Shown here: positions 22,666-62,649 of the stretch, piece by piece
Layout: every line of letters begins with the position of its first letter
Numbering within the stretch: the first letter of the stretch is position 1
Assembly: GCA_013388855.1 (NCBI GenBank)
Contig: JACAEM010000003.1
Span: 1 to 64,000, forward strand
Source: Chloroflexota bacterium
GTDB lineage: Bacteria > Chloroflexota > Anaerolineae > Anaerolineales > Villigracilaceae
Direction of reading: 5' to 3'
DNA length: 64,000 bases
Notes under the pieces: generated by a model
What the model was told of the DNA's origin: nothing
Seen by the model: only the letters and a program-made list of their open reading frames with translations
The model's database searches: none
Program-made: the position numbers and the translations under genes

Positions 22666-23685
22666 TTATTGCCGCAGGGCGGCGAGGAGGGAGGCGATGG
22701 TGGGGTGGTCGCTTTGTCCTTCGGGTGTGGTGAGACGCCAGTGATGCGCGTCCAGGACATCCACGTGGACGGGGTGACGGACGCCGTTGTTGTGGACTTC
22801 GTAGCCGATGCGTTCGAGGGCGCGCCAGGTCCAGGCGGTGGCGACGCCGTCCTTTTCACCGTGCAGGCTGATGGGTCCGCAAACGGGCTGGTGGACTTTG
22901 AAGGCGCCGCGGGCGTGGTCGAATTCCACGCCTTCACTTTGGAAGACGCGGGCAAGCGCGCCGTTGAGAGCGAGTTCTTCGGGCAAGCCGATGTGCAGTT
23001 CGCCGCTCGAGGAGAGCAGCCAGAGTTTGTCGGCGATGCGCAGGGCGAGGTCGAGGTCGTGAGTGGAGAGCAGGACGGCGCAGTTGGTCTCCCGCGAGAG
23101 GCGTTTGAGGAGCTGGAGGAGTTCCACGCGGCGGGGCAGGTCAAGGAAGGCGGTGGGTTCGTCGAGGAGGAGGACGGTGTCCCTCACCCCCGACCCCTCT
23201 CCCAAAGAGGGAGAGGGGAGGATTTGGGCGAGGGCGCGGGCAATCATCACTTTTTGGCGTTCGCCGTCGCTGAGTTCGTGGATGGGACGGGCAGCGAGGG
23301 CTTCGCAGTCTGTCAGTTGCATGGCGCGGCGGACGGCTTCTTCGTCGCGGGGGGTGAGACGTCCAAGCCAGTCGGTGTAGGGATGACGCCCCAGCGCCAC
23401 AAGGGCATAGGCGGAGAGGTTGCCCGCTTCGACGCGTCCCGTGAGGACGACGGCGAGTTGTTTCGCCAGTTCGAGGGCGGGGATGGAGAACAAGTCGGCG
23501 CCGCCCAGTCTCACCTTGCCTGAGAGCGGCTCCTGCATTCCCGCCAGCGTGCGCAGGAGGGTGGATTTGCCCGCGCCGTTCGGTCCGATGAGACAGACCA
23601 TTTCGGCGGGACGCAGTTCGAGGTCGAGGTCCGATGCGATGGGTCTGCGGCGGTAGCCGATGGTGAGGGAGGAGGTGGTGAGCAT
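22666..23685 (-). CDS. B12/iron-complex ABC importer ATPase (BtuD/FecE family)
   Basis: A 339-residue protein. Residues 1-250 are an ABC ATPase: Walker A GPNGAGKS (~34-41), signature LSDGE (138-142), Walker B LLLDEP (~172-177), and THDLD with the switch His. Residues 156-170 (about LPSPSLGEGSGVRDT), between signature and Walker B, are encoded by a palindromic repeat inserted in frame. The usual spacing there is only a few residues. A ~90-residue C-terminal extension follows the ATPase. I start it at the ATG at 23685; an upstream extension would be read from 7-bp repeats and the permease gene. The operon order is binding protein, permease, ATPase. Confidence 0.9.
   Translation of the reverse strand: MLTTSSLTIGYRRRPIASDLDLELRPAEMVCLIGPNGAGKSTLLRTLAGMQEPLSGKVRLGGADLFSIPALELAKQLAVVLTGRVEAGNLSAYALVALGRHPYTDWLGRLTPRDEEAVRRAMQLTDCEALAARPIHELSDGERQKVMIARALAQILPSPSLGEGSGVRDTVLLLDEPTAFLDLPRRVELLQLLKRLSRETNCAVLLSTHDLDLALRIADKLWLLSSSGELHIGLPEELALNGALARVFQSEGVEFDHARGAFKVHQPVCGPISLHGEKDGVATAWTWRALERIGYEVHNNGVRHPVHVDVLDAHHWRLTTPEGQSDHPTIASLLAALRQ
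23181..23222. repeat. CCCTCACCCC/CCCCTCTCCC palindromic element inside the ATPase gene
   Basis: Core arms CCCCTCTCCC (23194-23203) and GGGAGAGGGG (23209-23218) with an outer CCCTCACCCC arm at 23181-23190. It lies wholly inside a coding sequence and keeps the frame open. Confidence 0.9.
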
Positions 23686-23686
23686 G

Positions 23687-23714
23687 TTGGTAATTGGTAA
23701 CTGGTAATTGTCAC
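23687..23714. repeat. 7-bp tandem repeat between permease and ATPase genes
   Basis: TTGGTAA, TTGGTAA, CTGGTAA and a partial unit form the whole 25-bp gap between the permease stop and the ATPase start, so no ribosome site is visible for the ATPase. Confidence 0.85.
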
Positions 23715-24766: not shown

Positions 24767-24772
24767 GGGTGA

Positions 24773-24840
24773 TTGGTAAGTGGTAATTCACCCTCACCCC
24801 TGTCCCCTCTCCCGTTGGTAGAGGGGTGAAGGGGCGAGGA
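24773..24840. repeat. two repeat types between binding-protein and permease genes
   Basis: 24773-24786 has heptads TTGGTAA/GTGGTAA, and 24790-24840 has a degenerate CCCTCACCCC...CCCCTCTCCC...GAGGGG...GGGGCGAGG palindrome. They fill the 79-bp gap. Confidence 0.75.
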
Positions 24841-24845
24841 AAATT

Positions 24846-26224: not shown

Positions 26225-26397
26225 AGAGGCAATCCGAGCAAGCCGTCCTCCACCTCCTTTCCGCGAGAGTGTGGTAGAACCGACCAGAGCGGGCGACCTG
26301 ACTTGTGCCAGTAATCAATTTTCAGCAATGCTGGCATTCACAGTTGCGCGACAGTGCCGGACTTTCACCGGCTTCGCCGCTGACTGGTCGTATGAAA
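26225..26397 (-). ncRNA. cobalamin riboswitch aptamer
   Basis: On the minus strand the conserved core reads GCCGGTGAAAGTCCGGCACT followed by GTCGCGCAACTGTGA, the hallmark of B12 riboswitches. About 45 nt later comes AAGTCAGGTCGCCCGC, the B12-box region. Adenosylcobalamin binding should favour the terminator downstream and turn off the importer. The 5' end abuts the stop of the GT87-like gene. Confidence 0.92.
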
Positions 26398-27546
26398 TTA
26401 TGCAGGCATTGTATGCTTTTTATACAGCCGAGTCAAGATGGTAAAAATCACGGCAAGCGCACAGACCAGCAAAACAACATTTCCCGCGCGTTCGAACAGG
26501 ATGAGTCCCGCCCACGGCAAGAGGAAGACAAGCGCGATTGCCAGCCAGTCCATTGTAGTGTTGGCGCTGCCCGCCAGATAGAACAACGGAACAAGCGCGA
26601 ACGAAAAATCATAGTTCAACAAATACGGATTGACCAACAACGGGACACATACGAAGAAAGCGACAAACGCTTCATCAGCCAGCCGATGTTTGCTCCCGAT
26701 AAATAGAGCGATCCATACGAGAAGCATAATCCCCGCCACTGGCGCGGACTGGTCGAATCCCAATCCGAAGAGGCGGCCGACCGTCAACGGCAGGCTGACA
26801 CAGATCTCACATTCGGAGACATTCTTGAAATTAAGCAGTGATTGAGGATAGGTGATGATCCATGCCCGATCTGCAATGAATCCAAGAAGAAAGAGAGAAA
26901 TGCCGGCGAGGACTGTCCACCAAAACGCACGGCGACCAAAATCGTCGCGGCGCATCAGCAAATGAACGAGCACCGCCAGCAGGAGGAAGATCCCGACATG
27001 CGGCTTGAACGTGATCAGCGCCATACCCAACGCAAGCCATCCCGCCCGCTGACGTTTCAAGGCATGGACGATCAACGCCATACCGAGGATGGATGGAAAG
27101 ACATACTGTCCCACGATCAACGCGCCAAAAACGGGAAGGAATAAGAACGCCGCGATGAATGAATACAATCGTTCGCGCGGTTTCCAACCATCGGTCAGCA
27201 GCCAAACAGACACCAGCAGCATGGCAATATTGAGCAGGAACCACATCCGCACAGCGACCTCGATGGGGAGCAACGCCAGGGGCAGGGTGAAGACCGCGTA
27301 CCAGGGTGGATAGGGGAACGGCAGGATGAAGACTTTATCTACCGAAACACCGAGATCATCGGCTACGCGTTGCGCCTGTGCTGCCTGATCGTAGAGCGGA
27401 ATGCCGTGCAAAATGCCGACATCCGCGCGGTGGAGAACCTGGAAATCGAGGTAGGGGTCAAGGGGGATGGGGAGGTAGGTCGCGAGGGCGAGAAGAATGA
27501 GGGTGAGGAGAAAAATGGAAAGTAGAGAGATGACTATACGTTTCAT
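26398..27546 (-). CDS. multi-pass membrane protein, GT87/DUF2029-like glycosyltransferase
   Basis: A 382-residue protein with about ten hydrophobic helices. The N-terminal loop DPYLDFQVLHRADVGILHGIPLYD matches the family pattern of polyprenol-dependent mannosyltransferases (GT87). Its ATG at 27546 sits 2 nt after the stop of the SDR gene, so the two are translationally coupled. The family transfers a sugar outside the membrane from a lipid donor; substrate unknown. The B12 riboswitch begins right after its stop. Confidence 0.8.
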   Translation of the reverse strand: MKRIVISLLSIFLLTLILLALATYLPIPLDPYLDFQVLHRADVGILHGIPLYDQAAQAQRVADDLGVSVDKVFILPFPYPPWYAVFTLPLALLPIEVAVRMWFLLNIAMLLVSVWLLTDGWKPRERLYSFIAAFLFLPVFGALIVGQYVFPSILGMALIVHALKRQRAGWLALGMALITFKPHVGIFLLLAVLVHLLMRRDDFGRRAFWWTVLAGISLFLLGFIADRAWIITYPQSLLNFKNVSECEICVSLPLTVGRLFGLGFDQSAPVAGIMLLVWIALFIGSKHRLADEAFVAFFVCVPLLVNPYLLNYDFSFALVPLFYLAGSANTTMDWLAIALVFLLPWAGLILFERAGNVVLLVCALAVIFTILTRLYKKHTMPA

Positions 27547-53177: not shown

Positions 53178-53336
53178 ATGTCTGGACATTCTCACCCCAA
53201 ACGATTGATCCGCCCGCATTTCATTGGAGTGCCTGTTTCTTTTTTCAAAGCCCTGAGAGTCGCTTTTAGCGGCTCTCTTTTTTTGCCCCGTGACTCCCCT
53301 CTCCTTGTCAGGAGAGGGGACGGGGGTGAGGTCTGA
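53178..53336 (+). CDS. candidate leader peptide of the pyrC attenuator (52 aa)
   Basis: A 52-codon ORF whose ATG lies 8 nt after the -10 box, so it would be leaderless. It runs through the U-rich tract at 53236-53246 and the terminator at 53255-53284 and stops 4 nt before the pyrC ATG. This is the layout of enterobacterial pyrBI leaders, where UTP level sets the coupling of ribosome and polymerase. Its last ~15 residues are read from a palindromic repeat. Confidence 0.45.
53255..53284 (+). terminator. pyrC leader terminator (attenuator)
   Basis: GAGAGTCGCT/AGCGGCTCTC, a 10-bp stem with one G-T wobble and a 3-nt loop, followed by seven T. It sits between the promoter and pyrC. Confidence 0.8.
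53291..53331. repeat. CCCCTCTCC palindromic element before pyrC
   Basis: CCCCTCTCC (53296-53304) / GGAGAGGGG (53311-53319) then GGGGGTGAGG. It lies between attenuator and pyrC start and supplies the nearest purine-rich sequence before the ATG (GGGGGTGAGG). Confidence 0.8.
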
Positions 53337-53340
53337 ACCC

Positions 53341-54420
53341 ATGTTCAAACTCCCCGGCCTGATTGACCCGCACGTCCACGTCCGCGAACCCGGACAGATC
53401 CACAAAGAAGATTGGGACTCTGCCACCCAAGCCGCGCTGGCTGGCGGCGTGACGATGATCCTCGCTATGCCCAACACCAAGCCGCCCATCTTCGACGCCT
53501 CCACGCTGGACCTCGCGCTGGATTCCGCCAAACGAAAAGCCCGCTGCGACTACGCCCAATTTCTCGGCGCGGGTCCCGATAACGCCGATGCCGTCGCCGC
53601 CCTTGCACCCAAAGCCGCCGGCTTGAAAATGTACCTCGACTCCACCTTCGGCGAACTTCGTCTGAACGATATGACGTTGTGGATGCCCCACTTCCAAAAG
53701 TTCCCAAAGGATTACCCCATTGTTTTGCACTCCGAATCGCGCACAATGGCTGCCGGGATTTTGTTTGCCACCCTCTACGACCGTCCCGTCCACATCGCGC
53801 ACGTCTCGCTGAAGGAGGAAATCCTGCTCATCAAAGCGGCGAAGGAGCGAGGGATAAAGGTCACGTGCGAGGTTTGTCCGCATCATTTATATCTGACTAC
53901 TCCCTCACCCTTGCACCCCTCTCCCAGCGGGAGAGGGGATGGGGGTGAGGGCAGACTCGAAGTCCGCCCGCGCCTTGCCACGCAACAAGATGTGGACGCC
54001 CTATGGGAAAACCTCGATGTCATTGACTGCTTCGCCACCGACCACGCCCCGCACACCCTCGCGGAAAAAGACTCCGAAAATCCCCCGCCCGGCTTCCCCG
54101 GACTTGAAACCCTGCTTCCTCTCCTCCTCACCGCCGTTGACTCGGGACGTTTGACTTTAGACGACTTGATACAAAAGAGCGTCATCAACCCTCGCAAAAT
54201 CTTCCGCCTTCCCGAACAGCCCGAAACGTGGGTCGAAGTGGACGAAACCGCCGAGTACGAAATCAAAGCCGAACATCAATTCACGCACTGCGGCTGGACT
54301 CCCTTCGAGGGCTGGAAGGTCAAAGGCAAGGTGAGAAAGGTTGTCCTGCGCGGCAGGGTCGCGTTTGAGGACGGAAAAGTACTGGCTGAACGAGGCTATG
54401 GAAGGAACGTAAGGTCATAA
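53341..54420 (+). CDS. pyrC: dihydroorotase
   Basis: A 359-residue amidohydrolase that closes carbamoyl aspartate to dihydroorotate. Metal and active-site residues: HVHVREPG (His11, His13), the carboxylated Lys96 in LKMYLD, His130 in VLHSE, His154 in IAHVS, and the Asp in ATDHAPH. Right after CPHHLYLT, residues ~188-204 ([17 protein letters not shown]) come from an in-frame palindromic repeat, in a surface loop position. I start it at the ATG at 53341; an upstream GTG frame would read the repeat. Confidence 0.92.
53902..53951. repeat. CCCTCACCC/CCCCTCTCCC palindromic element inside pyrC
   Basis: A full copy with outer arms CCCTCACCC (53902-53910) / GGGTGAGGG (53943-53951) and inner arms CCCCTCTCCC (53916-53925) / GGGAGAGGGG (53929-53938). 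It is in frame within the dihydroorotase gene. Confidence 0.92.
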
Positions 54421-56230: not shown

Positions 56231-56382
56231 CATCGAAACCGAATCCGCCTCACCCGAAGAAAGAAGCGTAGTCTCGATGCGTCCCTGCAAAAACCGCTCA
56301 AGGCTGTTCAACCATCAGTCCCAAATCTCTAATTCGCCAGCTCTTCAACTTTCTATTCATCGAATTACGAATTACCAATTAC
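56231..56382. repeat. repeat-rich gap before pyrB
   Basis: CATCGAAAC...GTCTCGATG with CGTCCCTGC...TTCAACCA (56231-56312) resembles the right part of the 46443-46567 element. Then come heptads GAATTAC, GAATTAC, CAATTAC at 56362-56382. No gene seen. Confidence 0.65.
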
Positions 56383-56398
56383 CCACTAAGGAGTAAAC

Positions 56399-62400: not shown

Positions 62401-62649
62401 TGAAACTCCATACCGTCCTCACCCCTTGCCCCTCTCCCGCTGGGAGAGGATTGGGGTGAGGGGAAAATTTGTTCTAAAGCGGGGGTAATTTTACGGGGAA
62501 AGAGAGGATGCGTCAAGTGCGGGCAGGATATCCCCAGTTAAAAACCCGGCGGGGGAATCATCGCCTGATGACAAATGACACATGGCATGGGGGATTGGGA
62601 ATCGTATACTGAATTAACCGTTTGCCGTTTCCTGCAATAGCACAACCCC
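62401..62649. other. intergenic region, gyrA / radical SAM gene
   Basis: Divergent gap of 249 bp. 62417-62463 is a CCTCACCCC...CCCCTCTCCC...GGGAGAGG...GGGGTGAGG palindrome in the gyrA 5' region. No gene seen in the rest. Confidence 0.7.
62417..62463. repeat. CCCTCACCCC-family palindromic element upstream of gyrA
   Basis: Outer arms CCTCACCCC (62417-62425) / GGGGTGAGG (62453-62461), inner CCTCTCCC / GGGAGAGG. Confidence 0.88.

Follow-up and report, generated by a model that had tools for sequence, protein, structure and literature searches.

The ATPase gene and the palindrome within it

The window, that is, the whole stretch of 64,000 nucleotides analysed here, carries on its minus strand a gene for an ABC ATPase of the FecE/HmuV/BtuD type, and a G/C-rich palindrome lies inside the open frame of this gene. 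The features referred to in the text are listed below.

22666..23685, minus strand: ABC ATPase gene, FecE/HmuV/BtuD type, 339 residues (profile, family and alignment evidence)
23563..23586, minus strand: Walker A, residues 34-41 (invariant in the 70-member alignment)
23260..23274, minus strand: ABC signature LSDGE, residues 138-142 (invariant in the 70-member alignment)
23176..23223, minus strand: ILPSPSLGEGSGVRDT, residues 155-170, which replaces EPK of the empty ortholog (ortholog comparison)
23181..23222, minus strand: palindrome, a copy of the intrastrand triplex motif (pattern, triad check and covariance model)
23209..23218, minus strand: C-rich arm of the triplex, CCCCTCTCCC (triad check)
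23204..23208, minus strand: first loop, TCTTT (read off the sequence)
23194..23203, minus strand: G-rich arm, GGGAGAGGGG (triad check)
23191..23193, minus strand: second loop, TCG (shared with two E. coli copies, 12 and 20, tabulated in PMC4666352)
23181..23190, minus strand: third block, GGGGTGAGGG (triad check)
23155..23172, minus strand: Walker B LLLDEP, residues 172-177 (70-member alignment)
24788..24842: copy of the repeat between the permease and binding-protein genes (covariance model)
53280..53335: copy just 5' of the dihydroorotase-type gene (covariance model)
53900..53954, plus strand: second in-frame copy, in the dihydroorotase-type gene, directly after an 11-residue stretch
62413..62467: further copy (covariance model)

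The protein possesses an ABC_tran domain and all of the motifs (Walker A, ABC signature and Walker B), and its gene adjoins those for a FecCD-type permease and a binding protein, which together place it in the FecE/HmuV/BtuD type. Its scores were below the curated cut-offs of single NCBIfam equivalogs, and among solved structures it is closest to the heme importers HmuV (4g1u) and BhuV (5b57). Upstream of the transporter genes, at 26243-26404, we found a near-threshold match to the AdoCbl riboswitch (49.9 bits against a cut-off of 50), so that the transporter is likely a corrinoid importer. We aligned the ATPase with 69 related proteins, which are those of the best 80 of 407 loci that remained after ten without a full frame and one short sequence (L129) were dropped. 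Walker A (G34-T42), LSDGE (138-142), the D175-E176 pair of Walker B and H209 were invariant across this 70-member alignment.

The minus-strand frame is open through the palindrome and reads ...ARALAQ-ILPSPSLGEGSGVRDT-VLLLDEP, and a pattern for the motif (38 positions, five of them free) matched the window once and none of 100 shuffles. The original prediction for this DNA, namely a palindrome at 23181-23222 in frame between the signature and Walker B of an ATPase with intact motifs, is thus borne out. On the coding strand, the copy runs CCCCTCTCCC-TCTTT-GGGAGAGGGG-TCG-GGGGTGAGGG. The available text of PMC4666352 defines an intrastrand triplex motif as three consecutive blocks with a stem of 6-15 nt, at most one mismatch and loops of 1-6 nt; the ATPase copy has a 10-nt stem, loops of 5 and 3 nt, and ten valid base triads out of ten for a purine-motif triplex. 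Read by eye, it does not match the strict TM_ECO pattern, CCCTCNCCC N3-6 GGGNGAGGG N3 GGGNGAGGG, as 9-nt blocks give a second loop of 5 nt, and it fits TM_ECO only when the arms are read as 10 nt. The predicted hairpin is stable both as RNA (-36.2 kcal/mol, z -3.4) and as DNA (-16.9, z -3.0). Many of the aligned copies extend to palindromes of about 50 bp, with the motif on both strands, and the ATPase copy has one outer arm only. Rfam models matched the copy at chance level only, with 19.8 bits where the cut-off is 70 and 17.2 bits where it is 40. Judged by its base pattern, the repeat is one of the G/C-rich intrastrand triplex motifs of the TM_ECO/PIT kind.

Filled and empty orthologs of the ATPase

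Among the 17 other genomes of the genus, only G007 and G014 showed a close ortholog of the ATPase, the remainder reaching about 43% identity or less at best, and the near relatives are thus a small sample of three of the 18 genus genomes, including the source genome (G000). The G007 ortholog, which is 94% identical, is empty and reads ARALAQ-EPK-VLLLDEP; the G014 ortholog (80%) is filled and reads ARALAQ-ILPSPAVGEGLGVRDN-ILLLDEP; and both the G028 ortholog (72%) and one further close relative are empty at the insert site. Over the 70-member alignment, the distance from LSDGE to DEPT is 28 residues in 68 proteins and 41 residues in the other two, i.e., the ATPase itself and its G014 ortholog. 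At the level of sequence comparison, the insertion of the added segment is shown by these empty and filled orthologs. Residues were indeed added, albeit not the 15 or so that had been claimed: the 42-nt copy spans about 14 codons, and the net gain over the empty G007 ortholog amounts to 13 residues (39 nt). The join is ragged, as the codons flanking the motif differ from those of the empty allele.

The ATPase was modelled with AlphaFold at a mean pLDDT of 92.8. Residues 156-170 appeared as coil, with the block 161-170 at 64, and this loop sits between the helix 140-155 and the strand 171-175. The insert is therefore predicted to be a low-confidence loop on an intact fold, and probably just adds a floppy loop to the protein. 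The stretch had been said to tolerate little change, which is correct in so far as its length is constant in 68 of the 70 members of its own subfamily, but not in general: from LSGGE to DEP, 33 residues were counted in 4g1u and 37 in 5b57, against the usual 27 and the 40 of the ATPase. Since the solved heme importers carry natural extensions here, the site is a permissive loop, one that accepts length change in working transporters.

The history of the insert appears to be more complicated than a single gain. Over most of the ATPase gene, DNA identity between G000 and G007 is about 93%, but the insert with its ragged ends is common to G000 and G014. By this gene, G000 is closer to the empty G007 than to the filled G014, so two gains, or one gain plus a loss or recombination, would be needed. 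At informative sites, where G000 differs from G007 and G014 matches one of the two, all six between -22 and +1 agree with G000, three of them abutting the insert, and the tally across the whole of -260 to +320 is 15 versus 10. This distribution would be compatible with recombination over a short tract, among other histories. Downstream of the ATPase gene (L033-L035, L064-L065), G007 and G014 share DNA of about 86-95% identity and G000 has different DNA, i.e., the locus is a mosaic.

Copies elsewhere in the genome and its relatives

Counting by pattern was noisy (37 matches in the genome, 24 with the reversed control), and the copy numbers were therefore taken from a covariance model built on 20 copies. 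With strands and two adjacent partial matches merged, this model detected 62 sites in the source genome at E <= about 0.01, five of which are in the window, and the repeat is dispersed, as had been supposed. All 18 genomes of the genus had matches (at least 3 to at least 123 strand-matches each), as did at least 49 of the 61 genomes of the family at E <= 1e-4, with a patchy distribution within genera; these counts are lower bounds, since scoring was confined to the top 150 or 93 candidates of each genome. Another repeat, GGTAATTGGTAA-like, is also dispersed and occurs at 23689-23707, 24768-24786 and 56365-56383, with six matches against 0.11 expected.

Twenty-six of the 62 copies are internal to genes, with one open frame and coding-like codon usage on both sides, although the choice of open frames for this class itself selects for in-frame copies. 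These calls rest on a codon-usage score of 240-nt flanks, for which 30 long ORFs from the window served as the training set, not on annotation, and the least certain sites are C9:52167, C46:134177 and C20:72585. All 20 frames scanned against Pfam, which cover 21 internal sites, matched a family at E <= 1e-5 (L197, L206, L209 and L218 lay outside the scan). The hosts are HemD, leucyl-tRNA synthetase (LeuRS) with its editing domain, a MoCo/Fe-S oxidase, a DEAD-box/MZB helicase, a Cas4-like protein, an amidohydrolase (dihydroorotase-type), a LipB-type ligase, TatD, an amine oxidase, lycopene cyclase, a UvrD helicase (two copies), a CHAT/AAA protein, the MetH activation domain, a luciferase-like monooxygenase, an IF-2B family protein, GatB, a radical SAM protein, two N6 methylases and kynureninase. 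Eleven of the 21 scanned copies, as well as the ATPase copy, lie within the best-matched Pfam stretch. The genome search that the original prediction had proposed thus places the same type of insertion in other genes of this genome, in a lineage far from Rickettsia. Four of the other 36 sites (L173, L194, L207 and L215, near position 2000) are flanked on one and the same strand by coding-like sequence; inspected by eye, each reads as a junction at which one gene ends and another begins, the copy supplying a TGA for the upstream frame.

The internal copies show a frame bias. Over the 62 copies, 226 stop-free frames were classed by simple pattern and 24 were left unclassed; the RER register accounts for 71 of the 226 but is used in one of the 26 internal copies (P about 0.0007, with some class labels debatable). 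This bias suggests selection on the peptide, with Pro/Gly-rich registers being retained.

We also compared internal sites with their counterparts in the two near relatives. Three of the 26 sites (the ATPase, C9:52167 and C3:474) were excluded from this query, and 18 of the remaining 23 were comparable, 17 with G007 and 15 with G014. The flanks were 81-99% identical, except in three comparisons at 61-69% (C4:87681 against G007, at 61% and probably a paralog, and C20:88376, at 68-69%), and the copy segment differed. Nine sites were read on DNA, and at six of them the motif is missing from one or both close relatives. In LeuRS, the motif is absent from both G007 and G014; in the dihydroorotase-type gene, the amine oxidase and MetH, it is present in G000 and G014 and not in G007; in the helicase, it is shared by G000 and G007 and not by G014; and the lycopene cyclase of G007 is without it (the G014 match was not used). 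All three genomes have the motif in LipB, the monooxygenase and TatD, the TatD version being shortened in the relatives. Because the patterns at these nine sites conflict, a single simple tree does not suffice, and additional gains, losses or recombination are needed. In the MetH loop, where G000 has the triplex motif, G007 has the GGTAATTGGTAA-like second repeat instead.

Origin of the loop and known systems

The best explanation as a whole, to which we assign a probability of roughly 85%, is that a repeat with the triplex motif was inserted into the ATPase gene and is read through in a tolerant loop, and that the same has happened elsewhere in the genome. A small gene-less repeat with a G/C-rich intrastrand triplex motif would have entered the gene in the lineage of the window or a nearby one. 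As five of the six frames through the ATPase copy are stop-free, the copy would be read through as a Pro/Gly-rich peptide, which falls in the loop that joins the signature helix to the Walker B strand. Because solved relatives are extended in this loop too, the fold and the catalytic motifs are predicted to stay intact, and the ATPase very probably still works. Similar events would have taken place in about two dozen other genes, gene-breaking insertions presumably being purged and those in soft loops kept, a notion that the frame bias supports. In short, we infer the translation of the insert, its tolerance and the purging of harmful insertions.

The loop might instead be adaptive, the peptide having been recruited for a function such as tuning the ATPase or making contact with another protein. 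G014 retains 11 of the 14 residues of the segment LPSPSLGEGSGVRD and differs from it at the variable loops of the motif, and the frame bias indicates selection on the peptide. Nevertheless, mere tolerance explains that bias equally well, 68 of the 70 family members, including G007 at 94% identity, do without the segment, the same type of peptide recurs in many unrelated proteins, and the loop is predicted at low confidence; we thus regard a recruited function as improbable. The chances are slimmer still that the segment is absent from the final protein, either because the hairpin is excised from the RNA or because the ribosome skips it. A very stable RNA hairpin at the junctions, in a protein that is conserved elsewhere, would suit such a process, but in both G000 and G014 the copy is open and preserves the frame, and a bypass needs no biased register such as that of the 26 in-frame copies (the choice of open frames, however, selects for this). 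Finally, it is barely credible, even for a draft genome of 46 contigs, that the repeat is a G/C-rich run due to chance or a product of faulty assembly, as the pattern found nothing in the shuffles and the 62 sites have different flanks, and an assembly error is unlikely because the second genome, G014, carries the 41-residue form too, with a diverged copy at identical codons.

If the repeat was inserted and tolerated as proposed above, candidates for the copying step are template switching while the hairpin or triplex is being replicated and mobilisation in trans by a Y1/RAYT-type transposase. The one Y1_Tnp match in the source genome is a fusion with a response-regulator receiver (L063, 265-1896), in which no HUH motif was seen by eye. 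Y1 matches of similar score, in frames of 408-567 residues, were found in 16 of the 18 genus genomes. Across 40 of the 58 other Y1 neighbourhoods of the genus, seven motif sites of at least 27 bits fell in 164 kb against about 1.7 expected (P about 0.002, a post hoc estimate made by hand from lower-bound counts), and in the one case inspected closely (L273) another gene lies between the Y1 gene and the motif. A RAYT partner for the repeat is a weak, post hoc lead only. It is tempting to go further and to speculate, at somewhat short of even odds, that in these Anaerolineales one palindrome able to form a triplex continues to enter core proteins at their permissive loops, serving as a fast-turning, genome-wide source of new protein loops in which selection on the peptide picks the frame and lineages fill, empty and refill loops.

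Palindromes inserted in frame are best known from Rickettsia. The repeat was originally likened to the Rickettsia palindromic elements, and it does work alike: dispersed palindromes sit in frame in unrelated genes (26 of the 62 copies here) and are read through as peptide (available text of PMC10969869 and PMC2229807). By size it is set apart from them, the elements being 105-150 bp and our copies about 40-50 bp, in another host group. The accessible part of the review (PMC10969869) considers the same process conceivable in other prokaryotes. In-frame palindromes outside Rickettsia are already in print as the intragenic GTAG/CGTC REPs of Di Nocera et al. 2013, which, in the part of that paper available (PMC3733652), are likewise short palindromes in ORFs of many functions that supply stop codons at gene ends, GTAG repeats being reported from Chloroflexi as well. 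The present repeat is not one of them, as their tags are not enriched near the ends of the 62 copies (GTAG 1, CTAC 3, CGTC 3 and GACG 4, against about 6.9 expected each). Anaerolinea thermolimosa appears in a table of predicted REPs in the available part of PMC12306157. As for the protein, HmuV (4g1u) and BhuV (5b57) are the closest solved folds and have a longer segment at the same place, yet their extensions are 6 and 10 residues, compared with 13 in the ATPase.

Our literature search, whose coverage leaves out most subscription papers, returned no report that places the triplex motif in frame within genes or describes it from Anaerolineae; as far as searched, three things are new, namely the intragenic position of this motif, the lineage, and orthologs both with and without the insert at the core of an ATPase. 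Such orthologs open two questions to testing: by what route repeats of this small size are copied, and whether proteins truly gain new loops from them or tolerate them as litter. Gene models and structure predictions for such genomes also include repeat-derived loops.

The closest known system is TM_ECO, earlier called PIT, with which the repeat shares the order of C-rich, G-rich and G-rich blocks in nearly the same letters, the second loop TCG of E. coli copies 12 and 20, and the occurrence of inverted pairs. According to the available text of Holder et al. 2015 (PMC4666352), TM_ECO has 3610 copies in 262 proteobacterial genomes, G/C-rich triplex motifs are also found in cyanobacteria, and footprints in vivo did not support a stable triplex. 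The arms are 10 nt here and 9 nt in the published pattern, and the host belongs to Chloroflexota, a phylum unnamed in the main text of that paper. Furthermore, the 23 copies in E. coli K-12 are described there as always intergenic, whereas here 26 of the 62 copies lie within genes and in frame. A motif called strictly intergenic in E. coli sits in frame in many genes of an unrelated bacterium.
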